A stretch of 64,000 bases of DNA, taken from the NCBI GenBank assembly GCA_024998565.1, contig JACOEM010000009.1:62001-126000 (forward strand). The letters run 5' to 3'. The translations under genes were made by a program, and so were the position numbers. This DNA is from Nitrospira sp. Its GTDB lineage: Bacteria > Nitrospirota > Nitrospiria > Nitrospirales > Nitrospiraceae. This document shows positions 21,920-46,526 of the stretch, in pieces. The notes beneath the pieces are model-generated. The model was not told where the DNA came from and did no database searches. It saw nothing but the letters and a program-made list of their open reading frames with translations. Each line of letters starts with the position of its first letter. The first letter of the stretch is position 1.

Positions 21920-21958
21920 CTAGCAGGTTGTTGAGAACGGTCGCCAGCGGCCTCCTAC
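21920..21958 (+). repeat. Palindromic-repeat family end module
   Basis: CTAGCAGGTTGTTGAGAACG then GTCGCCAGCGGCCTCCTACC. Aligned with the reverse complement of 59606-59645 (CTAGCAGGATGCGGAAAAAG / TCCGCCAGCGGCGTTCCCGC), most positions agree. Its right end overlaps the stop codon of the trypsin-like gene. Confidence 0.6.
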
Positions 21959-23169
21959 CTAGACACCTTAATGAGCACAACGTTACTCGCATAGGCATCC
22001 TGCATATCTCTGGCCGTAGCGGGTTGTTTCACTTGGTTGGACTCTGTGCAAGGGCTAGAGGATGTCATGGAGATCATACTTTTCAAATAAGAGCTTTTGA
22101 CCGCGAAGTTAACGTTTTGCGGAAAAACTCCCGTCGTTCTTAGCATTTTCTTGTTGTTCAAGGTCGAGGTCACAACGCCGATGACGCGTCCCGATTGGTT
22201 TAATAGTGGGCTTCCACTATTTCCTGCCTGAATCGGGATGCTGATTTGAAAGACTCGGGGATCATTATCGATGCCCAGCACGTTGCTCACGAGCCCTTGG
22301 CCAATGCTGGGAGAAGTAGCTAAGAGCCCAGAGAGTGGATAGCCAATTGCGAATACCGCATCACCGGATTTGACTTCGTCTGAATTGCCGATCGAGAAAC
22401 AGGGCGCATCCTCAACAGTAGAGGCCACGCCATGAAGTTTTGAAGGATCAATTCGAAGCAAAGCCAGATCATTTTGCGCGTCTTTCAAAAGGAGATCCGC
22501 TTTCAGTTCCGTTGATCCACCTATCACCGAAATTCTTCTCGCCTCCTTAACAACGTGCCAATTGGTTGCGATCAAGTCTGACGCTACAAAAAATCCCGTT
22601 CCCGTACTGTCCTCTTGTTGTCTCAGAGAACCCGTGTTAGCGGTTTTGGGATAATTTCTAACGAACGTTGTCCGTTGTTGCCTGCCAAATCGATCAGAGA
22701 GAGTGAACTCCAAGAGGGTAGGGGATGGCAGAAGAAACATGGTCCCGATCTCATTATGTTCGTAATCGAAATAGGACCCGCTATAAGCTTCTGGAGAAGC
22801 AGTTTCTTTTAAAAGGAGCTTAATATCCCCTCTACTCCATGTGTCAACCCGCGAGTCTGCGATGACGCCTAAATAGTCATATTCTTTATATTGTTCCATC
22901 GTGTTACGGATGATCGCCACTTCATAATTGTTCGAACTTCCTATCCACACGCCTTCGATAGGGGTTAATTCGCGGTTAGCCAAATATTCCTCGATGAGTT
23001 GGGCGCGGCTTCTTATCCTTACCCCCGGAGTCGCTTTGTCATACAAGCCAGCAGCCGCGAAGCCCGGCGTTCCGACCACTCGGTTACCTTGCGCATCAAT
23101 GCTGCAACCGGTTAATCCGCATGCGCAAATAAGGACCAGTCCTACGGACCACAGCAGCTTAGATTTCAT
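21955..23169 (-). CDS. Trypsin-like serine protease lipoprotein (HtrA-like catalytic domain, no PDZ)
   Basis: This 404-residue lipoprotein has signal KLLWSVGLVLICACGLTGC with lipid attachment at Cys22. An N-terminal ~165-residue domain of unknown kind (EEYLANRELTPIEGVWIGSS ... FLLPSPTLLEFTLSDR) precedes a chymotrypsin-fold protease. The triad is His205 (TNWHVVKEA), Asp234 (NDLALLRID) and Ser318 (QAGNSGSPLLN), with GTGFFVASDLIATN and GYPLSG nearby. No PDZ follows, so it differs from DegP. It would act on envelope proteins. The coding region is clearly AT-richer than the surroundings and uses rarer codons, suggesting transfer. A repeat module overlaps the stop codon. Confidence 0.9.
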   Translation of the reverse strand: MKSKLLWSVGLVLICACGLTGCSIDAQGNRVVGTPGFAAAGLYDKATPGVRIRSRAQLIEEYLANRELTPIEGVWIGSSNNYEVAIIRNTMEQYKEYDYLGVIADSRVDTWSRGDIKLLLKETASPEAYSGSYFDYEHNEIGTMFLLPSPTLLEFTLSDRFGRQQRTTFVRNYPKTANTGSLRQQEDSTGTGFFVASDLIATNWHVVKEARRISVIGGSTELKADLLLKDAQNDLALLRIDPSKLHGVASTVEDAPCFSIGNSDEVKSGDAVFAIGYPLSGLLATSPSIGQGLVSNVLGIDNDPRVFQISIPIQAGNSGSPLLNQSGRVIGVVTSTLNNKKMLRTTGVFPQNVNFAVKSSYLKSMISMTSSSPCTESNQVKQPATARDMQDAYASNVVLIKVSR

Positions 23170-23348
23170 AGCGATTCCATTTCCGTCGGCATAATGCCAC
23201 GTGCTTTAGTGAACTACTATACTCACGCGGCTGAAGTATAACCCTCACCTTTTGTCATCTCAATCAGCTCCTAGTATAGGGTTGCTCAGGGCAAATAATG
23301 ACTTTCAAGTCGAGAATAGGGGTCGAAGAGCACAAGGGAGTTTTTGTT

Positions 23349-24016
23349 TTATGATCCTTTCGGCCTCCTTCGTGGGCGGAGTGTCGATTCCATCCCGAAT
23401 CGTTTCGCCATTCTCCGAATCCAGGGTTCGTCGCCGAACAGGCGACCTCGGTGCACACTCACTCGGAGCGACTCCAATTCCGGTGCAGGGTTAGGGTGAT
23501 TCACGCGCGTCAGACAATCTCGTGGCCAATCGACGGGCCAGTCGCTGCCCTGGGCGTCAATTTCTGGTCCTCCTGATGCTTCGCCAGAGGCTCACCCATT
23601 GCCAGTTTTCTTCCCGCAAGACCAACATCGCGCGTTGCATTGCGTTCCACATGGCGCACGATCGTCAGAAGGTGTGCATAGGTTTGAACCGGAAACGATT
23701 TGAAGCGACCTTGATAGATCGGTCTGGTTTCCGTCCTGTGGTGGTGGGCATGCCAGCGTTGCGTAGGCGTTACGGTGATCCACCGCAGCGTCTCAGACAG
23801 TTCTCCATTCTGACGATGTCAGATCAGGAGGTGCCAGTGCTTGGGCATCAGGCAGTATGCGGCGATGCGAATGCGAGTCTGAGCCTGAACCTCGGCCAAA
23901 ATCGTTTCGAGCGCGGCATAGTCGGAGGGTGTGCCGAACAACGACTATCGGCCCATGCGATGATTCAGGACGTCATAGGCAAGGTCTTCGACTGCGAGTC
24001 GTGGGCGGCGCGACAT
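23349..24016 (-). pseudogene. Decayed REP-associated tyrosine transposase (RAYT, Y1/IS200-like)
   Basis: The minus strand from an ATG at 24016 reads MSRRPRLAVEDLAYDVLNHR MGR, then a TAG, SLFGTPSDYAALETILAE, RIRIAAYCLMPKHWHLLI, a TGA, GELSETLRWITVTPTQRWHA and PIYQGRFKSFPVQTYAHLLT. This is the core of RAYTs, with the HUH-like HWH retained. The Tyr of RYVERN is His (RHVERNA). The frame is then lost; ENWQWVSLWR appears in another frame, and DWPVDWPRD ... RRPKGS in a third, ending at 23349. At least two stops and two frameshifts make it inactive. RAYTs mobilise REP palindromes. Confidence 0.88.
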
Positions 24017-38642: not shown

Positions 38643-39326
38643 ATGGCTACGATCAAAGCAGTCATTTTCGATTTCGACGGGGTGTTGTTCGACACCGAGC
38701 CGCTGCATTTCGAAATGTTTCGACAGGTGCTTCGAATGGAGGGGGTGACGCTTGCTCCGGACCGATACCATGCGCGCTATGTCGGGTTGACGGATCAGGC
38801 CTGCTTCCGCGCGGTCTTGACCGACTCCGGTTGGACTGCCATAACGGGCGAGACTCTCGACCGACTCGTGCAACGCAAAACCGGTCTCATGCAGGACGCG
38901 CTACGCAAGACGTTACCTGTTCTGTCCGGCGTCAGGGAATGTGTCGCAGCCGTGACGGAGGCCTGCCGTACGGCCATTGCATCCGGCGCGTTGCGCCAGG
39001 AAATTGCCTTGTGTTTGGAACTGGCCGGGATGACGTCGATGTTCGAGCATATCTCAGCGGCGCAGGATGTTCGTCAGGGCAAACCTGATCCGGCCCTGTA
39101 TCTGCATGCGCTGGGCGCGCTGAATCGGCGGTTGCCGCTAGGAGCCCACGAATGTGTGGCGTTCGAGGATACGCCGCACGGGATCGAAGCGGCCCGCAAG
39201 GCCGGGATGCGTTGCGTCGGGGTGGCGACAACCTTGCCCGAGAGTCGTCTGGTGCAGGCCGATCTTGTCGTCCCGTCGCTTCACGCAGCGTCCTTCAGCC
39301 AGGTACTCGCTCATCTCTCTGCCTGA
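38643..39326 (+). CDS. HAD-superfamily (subclass IA) phosphatase, beta-phosphoglucomutase-like
   Basis: This 227-residue protein has motif I DFDGVLFDTEPLHFE, with the cap domain following (RQVLRMEGVTLAPDRYHARY), motif II in AIASGAL, motif III Lys in DVRQGKPDPALYLHALGAL and motif IV in CVAFEDTPHGIEAARKAGMR. This is the subclass IA layout of phosphoglycolate phosphatase, beta-PGM and sugar-phosphate phosphatases. Substrate is unknown. ATG at 38643 (ATGGCTACGATC); upstream sequence is A/G-rich. It is directly followed by a palindromic MITE-like element at 39333, seven bases past the stop. Confidence 0.92.
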   Translation: MATIKAVIFDFDGVLFDTEPLHFEMFRQVLRMEGVTLAPDRYHARYVGLTDQACFRAVLTDSGWTAITGETLDRLVQRKTGLMQDALRKTLPVLSGVRECVAAVTEACRTAIASGALRQEIALCLELAGMTSMFEHISAAQDVRQGKPDPALYLHALGALNRRLPLGAHECVAFEDTPHGIEAARKAGMRCVGVATTLPESRLVQADLVVPSLHAASFSQVLAHLSA

Positions 39327-39634: not shown

Positions 39635-42040
39635 ATGAGCCGAACGACGACCATCTCCTCGAATTCCCCTCTGCGCCCCGCCGAACCCCGTGATGTGCTC
39701 GAAAAAGAGGCGGCGCAATTCCTTGCCGGTCTCCCTGTTCTGCCGTTCTCCCATGATGACATCACGGCTGGTTCCGAGAGCGAGTTACAGGCGGCGGTGT
39801 GCGGCCTCTCCGAAGATGTCGATCTTCCGCGCACGATTCAGCGCTCCAATTATCTGCACAATATCCGTGAACGGACGGCGGCCGGCGAGAGTCCGAGAAT
39901 CGTGATCAGGCAGTTGCAGGAATTCCTCGCCTCGCCGGATGCGACCGTTTGGGAAAATTCGTGGGTGCGGTTTCCCCGGCGGCTCCTGAATCGAACCGCC
40001 GATCAACTCTTCGAGGGCGATCTCGCAGCCGACAAGTGCCATGCCAAGGGGCCGCTTCGGGCCGATGCCCATCGGTATCTGCTGACGGAGCAGGGCGAGG
40101 AGTGGGTCCGCCTTCCGATCAGTTACCTGCTGAAGCTCACGCTGGCCCAGGTGATCGAAGAAATCGAGCGGGATGCGCCGCTGCTCGCGAGTGAGGGCCG
40201 ACGGCTGCTGAATCACTTCCTGAACGACAACAGCTCACCCGAAACCTTCTCCTTCTACGTGTCTCCGATGGATCGGGCGCAGGGGATGGGAACAGGCATT
40301 GCGCGGGAAACGGCAGTCCGGTTTCTGTTCACGCATCTGCTGGCGTTGTATGCCAATCGGCAATTCGGTTTGCAGGAGAGCGGACAACAGGTGTTGGTCT
40401 ATGCGTCACCCCATCCGCCGTTGCGGCAGCGCCGTCTCAACGGACTGGTGTCCGATGCCTTCTACCGCGAATTGTTTATGAACCCGTGCTTGTCGGGGTG
40501 GGAGCGAGGCGAGGAGAAGTCTCAGTACATGGGGCTCTGTCATGAGGTGCTGTCGCGCAGCCAACTGAACGCCGTCGTCCGGTTGAAGGATGCGGGCATC
40601 ATCACGCGCAACCTCGTCGTGTTGCCGTCCACCTCGAATATCAGCCTGGCCAACAACGGCACGCACCTCAGTTTAGGGAGTCGCATTCTGACGCAGGCGC
40701 TGCAATCCGGCGGGAAGGGATTCTCGGCTGCGCATGAAAAGGTTGTTGGCGACTTGGTGATCAAGATCGTGGAGCATTTTCTGCCGCTGTTTGCCGGCAT
40801 CTATAGCGCGGCGCCCTACCGCATGAACTTTCGTGATTTCCATCCGGAAACGGCCTTAGGTTTCCTGCCGCACGAATTGGACTTTACCCATTTGCGCATG
40901 TTGTGGCGCCGGTGGAAAAAGAAGGCCGGTCTTTCGGTGTTCGGGCGCTCCATTACACCGGTCGGTCCCTTGTGGGTGGATCGTGCCCTCAGCGCGCTCT
41001 TTCATTTGCGCGGCGACTTCCTGCCCGACTTCAGATTGATCGACTACCTCGTGTCCCTGTTGTCGACCGATCAGAGTCCGGCCCTTGACGGGATCCAGGG
41101 GAATGATCTCCGGCTGAAACGCGATCTAGGGCAACTCGGGGTCTTCGACGAACGTATGTCGCTCTACCTGTTCTACAAGTTGCGCGCGGAATCAGTGATG
41201 GGATTCTCCGGCTTCGAGGGGCGGCAGCACAGCCTGTTTTCCAATCATCTGGACGACTTTGCCGACGCGGCCGCCCTGCAGGCGCTGGTGACGGCGCTGG
41301 CCTTTCGCTATATCGCAACCGGAGCCGTGGCCCATGACGATATCCCCGACGATCCGTTCACCGAAAGCGAACGACGACAATGCATCTTCGCCTCGGCCAT
41401 CGGCGTCGGGACGGTGAATGTGCGCGACGGGGGATCGAACCGGTTCCTGGCGCGCATCCTGAGCAGGACGCAGAAGACCAGAGTCAGCCGCCGGTATGCA
41501 GGGTATCTGCGGGTCCGCGTCGATGACTATCGCCTGGCGCTTCTGGCGACGCTTGAAGAAGATGGGGCCGAATTGATCGAGGCATTTCAGCTTTCGGAGC
41601 ATCTGGGGCGCCTGCGTCAGCGACTGCTCGAATCGGAGAGCCACAGCACCGCCGGCAAGTTGACCAGGGGCATTTTGGATTCTATCGGTGCGGGAAATCC
41701 CATGCAGTTGTCCGGCGAGGAGTTCGCGCAGGCGTCGGAGGCCTATTATCGCCGTCAACTACGCACCCAGTATGTTCGAGAGGCACTCGGATGTGTTCGG
41801 GAGGATTTGCAGGCGATCGACGGGGGCGGATCCGGGTGCGACAGGCGGTATCGCGGGATTGCGACGGCGGTGATCGGTCCCCGGTCAGCTGCGGATGCCC
41901 TTGCGGAAGCCGAAAAGGACTTGTTGTCTGAGACGGCGGAGGTCCCCACCCTGCGCCGCTGTCTGGCCCTCTGCCTACTCACGATTGCCAGGACCGGCGC
42001 GGCATCCCTGAGCCGGGAGGGAAGGTCGCTGGCCTCATGA
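39635..42040 (+). CDS. Large protein of unknown family, first gene of the PSD/Lgt-like operon
   Basis: This 801-residue, soluble, mostly helical protein starts at the ATG at 39635, with GGGAGG six bases upstream. It has no signal peptide or membrane span. Notable blocks are LPRTIQRSNYLHNIRERTAAG, HAKGPLRADAHRYLLTEQ, SFYVSPMDRAQGMGTGIARE, SQYMGLCHEVLSRSQLNAVV, LPSTSNISLANNGTHLSLGS, APYRMNFRDFHPETALGFLP HELDFTH and SIGAGNPMQLSGEEFAQASE. I recognise no family. The conserved-looking His, Asp and Arg stretches could form an active site, but that is only a suggestion. Its stop overlaps the next start (ATGA), giving translational coupling with the PSD-like gene. Confidence 0.8.
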   Translation: MSRTTTISSNSPLRPAEPRDVLEKEAAQFLAGLPVLPFSHDDITAGSESELQAAVCGLSEDVDLPRTIQRSNYLHNIRERTAAGESPRIVIRQLQEFLASPDATVWENSWVRFPRRLLNRTADQLFEGDLAADKCHAKGPLRADAHRYLLTEQGEEWVRLPISYLLKLTLAQVIEEIERDAPLLASEGRRLLNHFLNDNSSPETFSFYVSPMDRAQGMGTGIARETAVRFLFTHLLALYANRQFGLQESGQQVLVYASPHPPLRQRRLNGLVSDAFYRELFMNPCLSGWERGEEKSQYMGLCHEVLSRSQLNAVVRLKDAGIITRNLVVLPSTSNISLANNGTHLSLGSRILTQALQSGGKGFSAAHEKVVGDLVIKIVEHFLPLFAGIYSAAPYRMNFRDFHPETALGFLPHELDFTHLRMLWRRWKKKAGLSVFGRSITPVGPLWVDRALSALFHLRGDFLPDFRLIDYLVSLLSTDQSPALDGIQGNDLRLKRDLGQLGVFDERMSLYLFYKLRAESVMGFSGFEGRQHSLFSNHLDDFADAAALQALVTALAFRYIATGAVAHDDIPDDPFTESERRQCIFASAIGVGTVNVRDGGSNRFLARILSRTQKTRVSRRYAGYLRVRVDDYRLALLATLEEDGAELIEAFQLSEHLGRLRQRLLESESHSTAGKLTRGILDSIGAGNPMQLSGEEFAQASEAYYRRQLRTQYVREALGCVREDLQAIDGGGSGCDRRYRGIATAVIGPRSAADALAEAEKDLLSETAEVPTLRRCLALCLLTIARTGAASLSREGRSLAS

Positions 42041-43053
42041 TCGCGCCGCATCAATACATCGAGCGTGAGACCAGCCTGATCAAGACCGAGCGGTTCTGCG
42101 GCGATCGGTGGCTCAATTGGGCGTATCGCGCCCTCTGGGAGGATGCGGGCTGGTTGATGAAGGCCTTAACCTCTCAACGTACGACACAGGTGTTGGGGTT
42201 CTTCAACTATGACCGGCCGTTTACCGCCACCCAGACGGCGGTATCCAGGTGCGCCCGGGCCATGGAGATCGATCTCTCGGAATGCCTCGAGTCTCGCGAT
42301 CGCCTGAATACTCTGCGACGTCTCTTCCAGCGGCGGTTGCGCTACTGGCAGGTACGCCCGATGGACGAGGATCCGCGGGCCATCGTGTCTCCGGCCGATG
42401 CCCGATTGCTCCTCGGGTCGTTCGCCGACGACTCCTCGCTCTTTCTCAAAGGAAAATTCTTCGACTATGACGAACTGCTCGGCATCGACCGGTCCCGATG
42501 GCTGAGCCTGTTTCGGCAGGGGGACTGGGCGATCTTCCGGCTGACCCCGGATAAGTATCATTACAACCACAGTCCGGTATCGGGGCGGGTGCTGGACTGC
42601 TATGACATTTCAGGCCGTTATCATTCCTGCAATCCCGGCCCGGTGGTGGTGGCGGCCACACCGTACTCGAAGAATAAACGTGTGGTGACGATCATCGATA
42701 CGGAGGTGCCGGGCGGGTCGCGCGTGGGGCTGGTGGCCATGATCGAAATCGTGGCGTTGATGATCGGCCACATCGATCAATGCTACTCCGCCGTCGCCTA
42801 TGACGATCCCAGGCCCGTCCAGATCGGGATGATGCTCGAACGAGGGCGTCCGAAAAGTCTCTATCGTCCGGGAAGCTCCACCGACGTGCTGTTATTTGAG
42901 CCGGGCCGGGTGGCGTTCTGCGAAGATCTTGTCCGGAATCGGTTTCGTCCCGGGGTGCAGAGTCGGTTTTCTCAAGGGTTTGGCCGGGCGCTCGTCGAGA
43001 CGGATGTACGGGTGCGCTCCACGATCGGTTGGAAGCGCGAAGGAGCACCCTGA
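42037..43053 (+). CDS. Phosphatidylserine-decarboxylase-like proenzyme
   Basis: This 338-residue protein. PSDs convert phosphatidylserine to phosphatidylethanolamine and self-cleave at a Gly-Ser bond to make a pyruvoyl group. Here FRLTPDKYHYNHSPVSGRVL (catalytic His region), GSRVGLVAMIEIVALMIGHI and the cleavage segment SLYRPGSSTDVLLFEPGRV (the GSST form seen in many non-E. coli PSDs) are all present. An N-terminal ~100-residue extension (RTTQVLGFFNYDRPFTATQT) is longer than in E. coli. No membrane span is obvious. Its start overlaps the preceding stop (ATGA) and its stop overlaps the next start (TGATG). Substrate may be lipid or another carboxylate. Confidence 0.88.
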   Translation: MIAPHQYIERETSLIKTERFCGDRWLNWAYRALWEDAGWLMKALTSQRTTQVLGFFNYDRPFTATQTAVSRCARAMEIDLSECLESRDRLNTLRRLFQRRLRYWQVRPMDEDPRAIVSPADARLLLGSFADDSSLFLKGKFFDYDELLGIDRSRWLSLFRQGDWAIFRLTPDKYHYNHSPVSGRVLDCYDISGRYHSCNPGPVVVAATPYSKNKRVVTIIDTEVPGGSRVGLVAMIEIVALMIGHIDQCYSAVAYDDPRPVQIGMMLERGRPKSLYRPGSSTDVLLFEPGRVAFCEDLVRNRFRPGVQSRFSQGFGRALVETDVRVRSTIGWKREGAP

Positions 43054-44108
43054 TGGCCGTTCAGGATGTGGCTGCCGCCCTGCTCATCGTGCTGTATGCG
43101 GCCTTATTCCTGTGGGCCTTTCGTGTCTTGCCGCGCGAAGGGTGGCAGGTACTTGCGACGGTGCCGCAGGCGCGACGTCCGGACGGACGGTGGACGGGAC
43201 TCAATCTGACCTATTACGGAGCGTTCACCGCCAGTGCCGTCGTGGTGGCCGTGGCGCTGGCGATCGTGCTCCTGGGGAGTGTGGCGGTGCCGCTCGACGC
43301 CATTCTGTGGCTGTCGGTGACGCTGTTGGGCGCTTGCGTGCCGGCGGCCAAAATTCTGGCCCGGCTTATCGAAGGAAAGACCAATACCTTCACCATCGGC
43401 GGCGCGTCCATGTTCGGATTATTTCTTGCGCCGTGGATTGTGGCGGCGCTGAATGCCGGATTCCCGGCGAGGGCGGACAACGTATTACCGGTGGCCGCCG
43501 TGCTGGCGACCGTCGCCATCGCATATGCGTTCGGGGAAGGGACGGGACGTCTGGCTTGCCTGAGCTTCGGCTGTTGTTATGGCGCTCCGCTGACCCGGAG
43601 TCATCCGTGGATTGCCGGATTGTTTGCGCATCACCACACGGTATTTACGGGTGAAACCAGGAAGGCCGCCTATGAAAGCGGCTTGGAGTCGGTCCCGCTG
43701 GTTCCCATTCAAGCGATGACGGCGGCTGTTTCGGTCGCGACGGGTATGGCCGGTCTCTGGCTGTTCTTTCATGGCCGGATGGCGGCGGCATTTTTGTTCA
43801 CCGTCGTGGTCACGCAGATGTGGCGGGTCGGATCGGAATGTTTGCGCGCCGACTATCGGGGCGGGATGAGGGTGTCGTGGTACCAGGTTCTGTCGCTCGC
43901 CGGTATAGCCTACGCTGCGTTCCTGACTTTCTGGCTGGCGGACGTGCCGTCCGTGCCGCCGGACGCGCTACGCGGGATCCGACTCCTGTGGCAACCCGGC
44001 GTGATTTTGTGCCTGCAAGGTCTGTGGCTCGGTATGTTTTTTTTCACCGGCCGAAGTCGGGTCACGACGGCAACACTGTCGATGCATGTTGCGAAGGATC
44101 GGATTTGA
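43053..44108 (+). CDS. Lgt-like (prolipoprotein diacylglyceryl transferase-related) integral membrane protein
   Basis: This 351-residue protein has about eight hydrophobic spans. Residues after the fifth span give YAFGEGTGRLACLSFGCCYG, matching the Lgt core GR-x-GC-x3-GCCYG. The upstream NTFTIGGASMFGLFLAPWIV may stand for the GG-x-x-x-YG segment. Lgt transfers diacylglycerol from phosphatidylglycerol to prelipoprotein Cys at the inner membrane. The lower conservation, the extra length and the operon with PSD argue that this is a specialised paralogue rather than the housekeeping lgt. The ATG overlaps the PSD stop by one base. Confidence 0.82.
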   Translation: MAVQDVAAALLIVLYAALFLWAFRVLPREGWQVLATVPQARRPDGRWTGLNLTYYGAFTASAVVVAVALAIVLLGSVAVPLDAILWLSVTLLGACVPAAKILARLIEGKTNTFTIGGASMFGLFLAPWIVAALNAGFPARADNVLPVAAVLATVAIAYAFGEGTGRLACLSFGCCYGAPLTRSHPWIAGLFAHHHTVFTGETRKAAYESGLESVPLVPIQAMTAAVSVATGMAGLWLFFHGRMAAAFLFTVVVTQMWRVGSECLRADYRGGMRVSWYQVLSLAGIAYAAFLTFWLADVPSVPPDALRGIRLLWQPGVILCLQGLWLGMFFFTGRSRVTTATLSMHVAKDRI

Positions 44109-44842
44109 TTGCCCGGCGACCGTCAGGATCCCGTCTGGTTGCCGTCCTCAGTCTCGCCTGTCTGTCGTTGATTGCTCCCGCGCGAGCGGAGCACGAACCC
44201 CTGCCGCCGGACTATCCCGACTCGCTGGAGCGTCGGCTGGCCGTCCTGCAAGCGAAGATCGCCACACAGGGCGTCAGGCTCGACCGGCTGATCGCAGGGG
44301 CCGAGCTGTACCTGGACATTGCCGATGACCTGTTCGAGGACGACGCGCAGAAGCGTCTGGCCTATGAGGCGGCAGCGGAGATGGCGAGGCGCGCCTTACA
44401 GATGGAGGAACGGAACGCACAGGCCCATTTTCTGTACGCGGCGGCCCGTGGAAGCGCCGAGCGATTGAAAGGCATCGCCAATGCCGGGCTGGTGTTGGGG
44501 GAAATCAAGGAGCATGTCCGCCGGGCGATCGAGCTCGATCCAGGCCATGCGCAGGCGCTGCAAATGATGGGAGGCCTCTATGCGGAGTTGCCCTGGCTGT
44601 TGGGCGGTAGCGAGAAAGAGGCTGAATCGTATCTGCGGCGCGCGATTGCGGCGGACGGACGTTATACCAATGCCCATCTCATCCTGGCCCGACTCCTCAT
44701 CAAACAGGGCCGATCCGGTGAAGCGCGCGCACATCTCGAGGCCGTACTCCATATTGAGCATCCGCACTATCCCTATGCCTGGAAACGCAGATTCCGGCCG
44801 GAAGCGGAACGATTGCTTAAGTCGCTTCCCTCTCCCGATTGA
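44105..44842 (+). CDS. Periplasmic TPR-repeat protein (TatT-like)
   Basis: This 245-residue protein starts at a TTG at 44105 overlapping the previous stop (TTGA). Signal peptide SRLVAVLSLACLSLIAPARA. It is helical throughout: LYLDIADDLFEDDAQKRLAY, MARRALQMEERNAQAHFLYA, IKEHVRRAIELDPGHAQALQ MMGGLYAEL, LLGGSEKEAESYLRRAIAAD, AHLILARLLIKQGRSGEARA, giving TPR-type pairs. The ELPWLLGGSEKEAESYLRRA block resembles TRAP-associated TatT proteins. It is the last gene of the four; a 6-bp stem GACCGC-CGG-GCGGTC (44841-44855) just after it may be a weak terminator. Confidence 0.85.
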   Translation: MIARRPSGSRLVAVLSLACLSLIAPARAEHEPLPPDYPDSLERRLAVLQAKIATQGVRLDRLIAGAELYLDIADDLFEDDAQKRLAYEAAAEMARRALQMEERNAQAHFLYAAARGSAERLKGIANAGLVLGEIKEHVRRAIELDPGHAQALQMMGGLYAELPWLLGGSEKEAESYLRRAIAADGRYTNAHLILARLLIKQGRSGEARAHLEAVLHIEHPHYPYAWKRRFRPEAERLLKSLPSPD

Positions 44843-44918: not shown

Positions 44919-46526
44919 TTATGAGAGATGTCGAAACATCCAATACAGAGATCCGGCCAGTACGATGGACGCCGGGAGGGTCAGAACCCATGCCAGTGCG
45001 AGATGCCGGACTGTCTGCCACTGCAAGCCCGACCGATTGGCCGCCATGGTTCCCGCCACGCCGGAGGACAGCACTTGTGTCGTGCTGACCGGAAGCCCGA
45101 ATAGGTCCGCTGCGCCGATCGTCGTCATCGCGACCAATTCCGCGCTGGCGCCCTGACCGTAGGAAAGGTGCGTTTTTCCGATTTTCTCCCCGACCGTCAC
45201 CACAATACGTTTCCAGCCGATCATGGTGCCCAGCCCCAGCGCGATGGCCACAGCAGCTTTGACCCACACCGGGATGTATTTGGTGGCGTTGTCCAACATG
45301 GATCTATAGTGGAGCAGGACGTCTCGATCCGATCTTGAAAAGGCCGGTTCGTGAGTGTTGTTCATCCAACGCAGGGATTCCCCCAGCAGGTACATGTCGT
45401 TCCGCACGTTGGAGGTGTGTTCCGTCGGTATCTGGGCGACGGTCGCGTAGGAGGCAATCTGTGTGCGAACCATGCCGCTCAGCGCGCGAAGGGCCGGCAA
45501 GGTGTCCGGGCGAACCTCGTGGGTGCGGAGGTACTCTGCCACCGTGCGCCGCGGGTCCACCGGGGTGAGAGCCGTCTTGCCGTACCGTTGGAAAATAGCT
45601 TCCGATTTGGTCGACGCTTCCACGAAGGCAGGTGTGTACGAAATGTCCACGGTGCGATTGAGCGCATAGACCGTCGGCACGGTACCGATGAGGATCAGCA
45701 TGATCAGGCCCATGCCCTTTTGCCCGTCGTTGGACCCATGGGCAAAGCTGACACCCGTACAGGTGAGAATGAGCAGACCCCGTATCCACAGGGGCGGTGG
45801 TGTCTTGCCGCGCGGCGGTTTGTACAACTTCTCGACGGGGACGGCCTTCATGGCGATCAACAGCAGAAACGCAGCGGCGGAGAAACCGATCAGCGGAGAA
45901 AGCAAGAGGGACTTGCCGACGCTGAGGGCCTGTGTCCAATCGACGCCGCTGGTATTCGTGCCGCCGGCTGCCATCAGCTGGTTGGTGAAGCCGACGCCGA
46001 TCACGGAGCCGATCAGCGCATGCGAACTGGAAGAAGGCAGACCCAGATACCAGGTCCCCAGGTTCCAGAGAATGGCGGCGATCAGCAGCGCAAACACCAT
46101 GGCGAATCCGGCTCCGGCGCTCACTTGGAGAATCAACTCGACCGGCAGCAGGGCGACGATTCCGAACGCAACGGCTCCGGATGCAAGCATGACGCCGATA
46201 AAGTTCCACAGACCGGACCAGGCCACGGCGAGATGCGGCGGCATGGAATGCGTATAGATGACGGTCGCGACGGCGTTCGCCGTGTCATGAAACCCGTTGA
46301 CGAATTCGAAGCCGAGTGCGATCAGCAGGGCAAATCCGAGCAGGATAAACGGCCAGACTGAAGAGGCGCGAACATCGGAGAGGTCCGAGGTCAACTCACC
46401 GGCGACGTAAATTCCGCCGAGCGTGAGCAGGATCAGAATGAGGAAGAGGCCGATTTGTGAAGTCCCTCCTTCGAGAGTGATCTCGAAGGAATCGACAGCG
46501 GCGGTTTCGATGGGAGGCGGTGTCAT
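44919..46526 (-). CDS. pitA: Low-affinity inorganic phosphate transporter (PiT family)
   Basis: This 535-residue inner-membrane protein has about ten spans and both PiT signature repeats: GFEFVNGFHDTANAVATVIY and GVSFAHGSNDGQKGMGLIML. Also seen are LPSSSSHALIGSVIGVGFTN, GLPVSTTQVLSSGVAGTMAA and WKRIVVTVGEKIGKTHLSYG. It imports phosphate (often as metal-phosphate) with protons. A ~170-residue hydrophilic insert between the repeats (NRTVDISYTPAFVEASTKSE to NTHEPAFSRSDRDVLLHYRS) is typical of the larger PiT proteins. The long opposite-strand frames over this gene are shadows. Confidence 0.96.
   Translation of the reverse strand: MTPPPIETAAVDSFEITLEGGTSQIGLFLILILLTLGGIYVAGELTSDLSDVRASSVWPFILLGFALLIALGFEFVNGFHDTANAVATVIYTHSMPPHLAVAWSGLWNFIGVMLASGAVAFGIVALLPVELILQVSAGAGFAMVFALLIAAILWNLGTWYLGLPSSSSHALIGSVIGVGFTNQLMAAGGTNTSGVDWTQALSVGKSLLLSPLIGFSAAAFLLLIAMKAVPVEKLYKPPRGKTPPPLWIRGLLILTCTGVSFAHGSNDGQKGMGLIMLILIGTVPTVYALNRTVDISYTPAFVEASTKSEAIFQRYGKTALTPVDPRRTVAEYLRTHEVRPDTLPALRALSGMVRTQIASYATVAQIPTEHTSNVRNDMYLLGESLRWMNNTHEPAFSRSDRDVLLHYRSMLDNATKYIPVWVKAAVAIALGLGTMIGWKRIVVTVGEKIGKTHLSYGQGASAELVAMTTIGAADLFGLPVSTTQVLSSGVAGTMAANRSGLQWQTVRHLALAWVLTLPASIVLAGSLYWMFRHLS

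Follow-up and report, generated by a model that had tools for sequence, protein, structure and literature searches.

We describe three consecutive genes, here called A, B and C, within a 64,000-nucleotide stretch of a Nitrospira genome (contig JACOEM010000009.1, positions 62,001 to 126,000; G000:C9:62001-126000 in our numbering, hereafter the window). They form a real, conserved and undescribed enzyme unit built from divergent members of known families: a large protein of ligase-like fold (A), a proenzyme resembling phosphatidylserine decarboxylase (PSD; B) and a membrane protein resembling the prolipoprotein diacylglyceryl transferase Lgt (C). The three-gene unit is conserved and patchily distributed across Nitrospirota, Desulfobacterota and SAR324, and a literature search of open-licence papers returned none that joins the three families. 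It is linked to phosphate genes, a new observation absent from the original prediction made for this DNA. We tentatively propose, at somewhat less than an even chance, that A-B-C is a phosphate-linked membrane-lipid tailoring pathway, in which diacylglyceryl would pass from phosphatidylglycerol (PG) to a small amino-acid-derived headgroup to give a phosphorus-free (amino)lipid.

Genes A, B and C form a conserved unit separate from housekeeping psd and lgt

The host genome (completeness 99.99%) has Nitrospira as its closest relatives. As originally described, the three genes and a fourth (gene D) run in one direction and overlap by ATGA, TGATG and TTGA, and the coordinates of the open reading frames bore this out: the ATG of B lies over the TGA of A at 42037-42040, with the B/C and C/D overlaps at 43051-43055 and 44105-44108. 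Scans for promoters, terminators and Rfam families gave no signal above chance. Relatives share 48-94% identity with gene A over the length of A (n = 64), 49-96% with gene B (n = 31) and 35-70% with gene C (n = 29), and A, B and C are accordingly real genes.

Relatives of gene A were confirmed at 263 places in the searched genome contigs, and the best 80 of these fell in Nitrospira, Geobacterales, Syntrophales, Desulfobacterales, SAR324, Nitrospinota and one Brocadia bin. Among 198 sampled Nitrospirota genomes, nine carried gene A (1097-1259 bits, with no intermediate scores) and exactly those nine carried the Lgt-like protein (408-498 bits; next score 41). Gene A was also present in 22 of 247 Desulfobacterota genomes, with one additional fragment match. 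Gene order was compared in 87 loci, each spanning 12 kb or more: the PSD-like gene adjoined gene A in 82, and the Lgt-like gene lay within 6 kb in 79. Most exceptions corresponded to insertions or rearrangements that placed the Lgt-like gene (L024, L050, L058, L079) or both partner genes (L018) a few kb further away; in L077 the PSD-Lgt pair was found approximately 21 kb from gene A on the same contig.

Separate housekeeping copies were found in the host genome, with psd on contig C13 (159 bits, vs 120 for gene B) and lgt on contig C7 (274 bits, vs 42 for gene C). Twenty other genomes with the operon all contained a housekeeping-type psd, and 18 contained a strong Lgt match, the two without one being assemblies named as metagenome bins. 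With housekeeping psd and lgt encoded elsewhere, B and C represent additional, divergent paralogues. Strict co-occurrence and separate housekeeping copies had been put forward as the results that would support a dedicated pathway, and both were obtained: A and the Lgt-like gene occupy an identical set of Nitrospirota genomes with the trio adjacent in about 80 of the 87 loci, and the housekeeping copies are present in the host and nearly all other operon genomes.

In a quick, unrooted tree of gene A, the Nitrospirales clade was nested among Desulfobacterota sequences. Together with the patchy distribution, this nesting suggests that the unit has been transferred between phyla. Separately, the bin labelled Candidatus Brocadia (G208:C96; loci L036 and L191) carries the operon about 6 kb from a housekeeping lgt; as its gene A groups with that of a Desulfuromonadales bin, misbinning of this contig is possible.

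Gene A is predicted to be a carboxylate-amine ligase of a new branch

Sequence and profile searches of gene A against Pfam, NCBIfam and the PDB returned no genuine match, and weak signals to DEAD_assoc (13.5 bits), histone and NifB were rejected as noise. No match was obtained with the family models PF04107, PF04262 or PF03136, nor in a GCS2 search of the host genome. An AlphaFold model built from a 65-sequence alignment had a pLDDT of 88.2 and a pTM of 0.91. Structural alignment of this model gave Z scores of 18.1-16.2 with gamma-glutamylcysteine synthetase, 17.7 with YbdK and GshA, 14.7 with PafA, 14.3 with Dop, 12.8 with plant GCL and 7.5 with GS III, while the best unrelated structure reached 3.9. 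Foldseek searches with the model were weak (best E 0.08), and no match was found among the viral structures searched. The original description of a protein of no known family and no recognisable fold was therefore upheld by sequence but overturned by fold (Z 14-18).

Motifs like those of the superfamily are present in gene A. The metal-binding GxExE motif (G46-S-E48-S-E50) was invariant in the 65 sequences and lies on the first strand (43-49), in a register that agrees with YbdK: residue 41 of A aligns with YbdK residue 10, and the YbdK motif begins at 15. G342xH344xS346 (strand 343-349) and the putative ExR motif E528xR530 (strand 525-532) were also invariant, and follow each other in the same order as GxHxNxS and ExR of GshA. 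By eye, D198-N-S-S-P202-E203, of which D198, P202 and E203 are invariant, resembles the D-x-x-x-P-E of Pup ligases. Profile comparison of gene A with GshA, YbdK and Pup ligases by hhalign gave no match, and the control comparison of GshA with a Pup ligase failed as well.

Judged from the model, gene A belongs to the glutamine-synthetase-fold amidoligase superfamily, which groups glutamine synthetase (GS), gamma-glutamylcysteine synthetase (GCS) and Pup ligases. Because this GCS/YbdK/Pup-ligase fold is combined with a retained GxExE and a putative ExR motif, gene A is probably an active ATP-dependent, amide-bond-forming carboxylate-amine ligase representing a new branch. It shares with GshA, YbdK and PafA/Dop the fold and GxExE, with the putative ExR following in the same order, but those proteins are about 350-500 residues long, whereas gene A has 801 residues, no Pfam, NCBIfam or profile similarity, and lipid-enzyme partners. 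The Pup ligases of the host genome are other genes than gene A. Four genes of the Pup-ligase family (PafA/Dop) were found there in two clusters (G000:C2:181382-185770 and G000:C13:87961-92770); many relatives likewise have four, and in several other families of the phylum the number is two or zero.

Gene B retains the PSD triad and gene C the residues that handle phosphatidylglycerol

Gene B passed the Pfam PS_Dcarbxylase model (PF02666) with 118.9 bits against a cut-off of 22. The residues D121, H175 and H178 and the proenzyme serine S281 (GSST) were invariant, and the catalytic Asp and His aligned with those of E. coli PSD, in keeping with the initial view of a PSD-like protein with a self-cleaving GSST site. 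Despite this shared Asp, His pair and proenzyme Ser, gene B fell far below every NCBIfam PSD equivalog cut-off (best 120 vs 371 bits; nearest model NF001941) and differs from known PSD in its GSST cleavage motif and in being an extra copy beside the housekeeping psd.

Gene C passed the Pfam LGT model (PF01790; 41.4 bits vs a cut-off of 24.9), matched the Lgt profile with a probability of 97.9% (E 6e-13) and had the fold of E. coli Lgt (5azb; Z 13.5, next structure 4.9), but scored only 21 bits against an Lgt equivalog cut-off of 334. Its residues were mapped on E. coli Lgt numbering in an alignment of 30 proteins. Equivalents of Y26, G99, G142, R143, G154, R239, E243, R246 and Q264 were kept in 29 or 30 of the 30, R143 and R239 in all. 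Y26, R143, G154, R239 and R246 are among the residues that hold PG, and the PG-handling residues were kept in 30 of 30. Both arginines are essential for diacylglyceryl transfer by Lgt (PMC4728403), with a proposed role in positioning the PG phosphate (PMC13251419). Replaced positions were H103 (V/F), G145 (A), H196, Y201, E202 and Y235 (T); the N146 position is Cys, as in GCCYG-type Lgts of the phylum, and the C-terminal end is about 55 residues longer than in Lgt. Within the set essential in E. coli (Y26, H103, R143, N146, G154, R239, Y235), gene C thus departs at H103, Y235 and N146 and keeps the rest. H103 and Y235 are both essential in E. coli Lgt, and other bacteria have Y, W or F at H103 (PMC13251419). 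These residue patterns indicate that gene C keeps the lipid-donor (PG) side of Lgt, with a putatively rebuilt acceptor side.

The original prediction had pointed to the GCCYG sequence of this Lgt relative, and a reading of it as a special signature was rejected. It proved to be common to a whole class of ordinary-looking Lgts in Nitrospirota (L103-L113), which have FYGG for FHGG and GCCYG for NGELWG and retain HPTQLYE. Because these changes occur in Lgts that keep HPTQLYE, they are by themselves no mark of a new function.

These comparisons bear on two alternative explanations. In the first, the proteins are degenerate or regulatory paralogues that lack the predicted activities, which could account for the absence from C of some residues essential in E. 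coli Lgt; as neither the catalytic motifs of A and B nor the PG-handling set of C varies across phyla, we give this explanation next to no credence. In the second, which develops the lipoprotein side of the original prediction, C would attach lipid to a special protein or peptide, A would add an amino acid through an isopeptide bond in the manner of PafA, and B would decarboxylate the terminal residue of a chain. The Lgt fold of C and the resemblance of A to Pup ligase (Z 14-15) agree with such a scheme, and the amino acids on which pyruvoyl enzymes can act are varied. We nevertheless regard it as very unlikely: C lost Y235, H196, Y201 and E202 and has V/F at H103, two of these positions being those reported as essential for Lgt, and no recurring gene for a substrate protein was found in the neighbourhood. 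Because residues needed for lipoprotein work have been lost from C, the product is more likely to be a small-molecule lipid than a modified lipoprotein. Hence, of the dedicated lipid- or lipoprotein-modification pathway first suggested, the conserved dedicated unit stands and the lipid side is favoured, whereas the lipoprotein side is not.

The unit is recurrently flanked by phosphate genes

Genes for PstS, PstC, PstB, PhoU, Pit, Ppx/GppA or CYTH-type proteins flanked 36 of the 87 loci. None was found in 32 regions around the housekeeping psd and lgt of operon genomes, or in 40 evenly chosen regions from ten operon genomes, all ten of which carry phoU. With one vote per 68%-identity cluster, phosphate genes were present in 14 of 39 (Fisher p 1e-5 vs the 40 regions and 1e-4 vs the 32), in a comparison whose phosphate queries came from operon loci and whose loci are related and differ in flank length. 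The phosphate-neighbour label changed 15 times on the tree, indicating that the linkage arose or was lost repeatedly.

Both the partners and their orientations vary: Pst genes accompany the unit in Syntrophales and in L014; Nitrospira, this window included, has Pit, and other Nitrospirales have Ppx and CYTH. PhoU is also encoded beyond the operon, at a distance of 6 kb in G206 and 13 kb in G135. In G217 the B-C pair is directly downstream of pstS and gene A is near phoU-pstB-pstC; an account of these as two separate phosphate-linked loci was rejected, as they lie about 21 kb apart on one 65,690-base contig, and they were counted once.

Such neighbours would also fit a role in phosphate or polyphosphate homeostasis, with the unit making a low-abundance signalling lipid or cofactor that regulates or anchors phosphate uptake or polyphosphate granules. 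Ppx/GppA, CYTH-type, Pit, PhoU and Pst genes all agree with this possibility, which we consider unlikely; two of the three enzymes come from lipid-handling families and a Zn-dependent phospholipase C recurs nearby, which argues for a membrane lipid.

A third alternative is phospholipid headgroup tailoring, in which B would be a second PSD that makes phosphatidylethanolamine from phosphatidylserine, A would couple a carboxylate or amino acid to the amine of that lipid, and C would bind or modify the lipid. Phosphate would stay in the product, and the phosphate neighbours would reflect envelope adjustment. The whole PSD triad and proenzyme site of B are compatible with this scheme, as is the fold of A, which makes amide bonds to amines. 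However, a housekeeping psd was already present in each of the operon genomes tested, the residues kept in C are those that take diacylglyceryl off PG, and the recurrent linkage to phosphate genes is left unexplained. This alternative appears fairly unlikely.

A proposed pathway to a phosphorus-free lipid

Conservation of the unit, the separate housekeeping copies, the families and folds, the catalytic and lipid-handling residues and the phosphate neighbourhood were all read from sequence or predicted fold. We infer that the three enzymes are all active and serve one pathway with one product. In the tailoring pathway that we favour, C would bind PG and transfer the diacylglyceryl group to a small acceptor derived from an amino acid, not to a prolipoprotein cysteine, releasing glycerol phosphate; B would decarboxylate the alpha-amino-acid headgroup; and A would spend ATP on an amide bond, either building the headgroup or capping it. 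The order of steps and the acceptor are part of the same inference. The product may be an amino- or zwitterionic glycerolipid made under phosphate scarcity, and since the unit lies in a phosphate context, the lipid reading suggests that it would lack phosphorus.

Replacement of phospholipids has a precedent: at low phosphate, the sulfate reducer Desulfovibrio alaskensis replaces more than 90% of its phospholipids by phosphorus-free lipids, using other enzymes (PMC5193443). The proposed pathway would share its predicted purpose, phospholipid replacement under phosphate scarcity, with the routes of BtaA (betaine), OlsBA/OlsF (ornithine) and Agt (glycolipid). It differs from them in that genes A-D match none of these enzymes and the diacylglyceryl donor would be PG, used in an Lgt-type reaction. 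A search of the host genome found no BtaA and a marginal, partial OlsB-like match; because relatives without the operon lack both too, this gives weak support to a lipid pathway.

Several points weigh against the proposed pathway. Gene A was placed by fold alone, its profile comparison being negative, as was that of GshA with Pup ligase. Gene B could make phosphatidylethanolamine, a product that contains phosphorus. No enriched PhoB box was found upstream of A (mean best score 9.10 vs 8.83 in shuffles), and about 60% of the loci have no phosphate gene in view. In addition, the active site of Lgt probably faces the periplasm, whereas A and probably B are cytosolic.

A specific version of the pathway would use cysteine: S-diacylglyceryl-cysteine would be decarboxylated to a cysteamine form and capped with gamma-glutamate, yielding, from PG and under phosphate limitation, a zwitterionic thioether counterpart of phosphatidylethanolamine. 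This version would use the ancestral chemistry of all three families; it is speculative, and in this exact form we consider it quite unlikely. If true, it would define a new class of phosphorus-free membrane lipid with an Lgt-type bond between diacylglycerol and headgroup. We know of no Lgt reaction outside lipoproteins, and this would be the first.

The A-B-C set is common to nitrite oxidisers (Nitrospira), metal and sulfate reducers and SAR324. If the proposed pathway is correct, it would be unlike the known phosphorus-free routes and would extend the Lgt reaction beyond lipoproteins, and gene A could serve as a marker for phosphate-stress lipids in soils, sediments and wastewater. The proposal is directly testable, as few genes are involved and some hosts are cultivable.

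Gene D and the variable neighbours

The features of the locus are listed in Table 1. Gene D passed the TAtT Pfam cut-off (29.4 vs 26.5 bits) and reached 27 bits against a BstC cut-off of 350; TAtT and BstC are periplasmic TPR lipid-binding proteins. It had been counted as a pathway member, but was confined to Nitrospirales loci, and a four-gene core was rejected on these grounds: the core is A-B-C and gene D a Nitrospirales add-on. One could guess that it carries the lipid across the periplasm, and that the phosphatase encoded upstream recycles the released glycerol phosphate.

Table 1 Features of the operon and its flanks, in window coordinates
Feature	Position	Strand	Description
Gene A	39635-42040	+	801 aa; ATP-dependent carboxylate-amine ligase (predicted) in a new branch of the GS/GCS/Pup-ligase fold
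Gene B	42037-43053	+	338 aa; PSD-like pyruvoyl decarboxylase proenzyme
Gene C	43053-44108	+	351 aa; predicted Lgt-like membrane diacylglyceryl transferase; extra C-terminal part
Gene D	44105-44842	+	245 aa; TTG start; periplasmic TPR protein resembling TAtT/BstC; signal peptide judged by eye
HAD_2 phosphatase	38643-39326	+	Upstream of gene A; conserved there in Nitrospira (8 loci); possible accessory
Pit-type (PHO4) phosphate transporter	44919-46526	-	Convergent neighbour of the operon; part of the phosphate neighbourhood

Other neighbours were specific to particular groups. In Geobacterales (L015, L016, L017, L020, L021, L025, L033, L034, L035, L080), the Lgt-like gene is followed by genes for a 171-residue membrane protein without a Pfam match and a Zn-dependent phospholipase C (PF00882). 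A DksA/TraR-type zinc-finger gene lies between the PSD-like and Lgt-like genes in Syntrophales (L039, L044, L054, L062, L071). A 499-residue FDIDGT (HAD-like) protein, with no family above cut-off, is encoded just upstream of or near gene A in L042, L045, L066 and L067. Elsewhere in the window, the G+C content dips to 0.51 at 22001-24000, against about 0.60 around it; the main open reading frame there (21955-23169, minus strand) may belong to an acquired segment.

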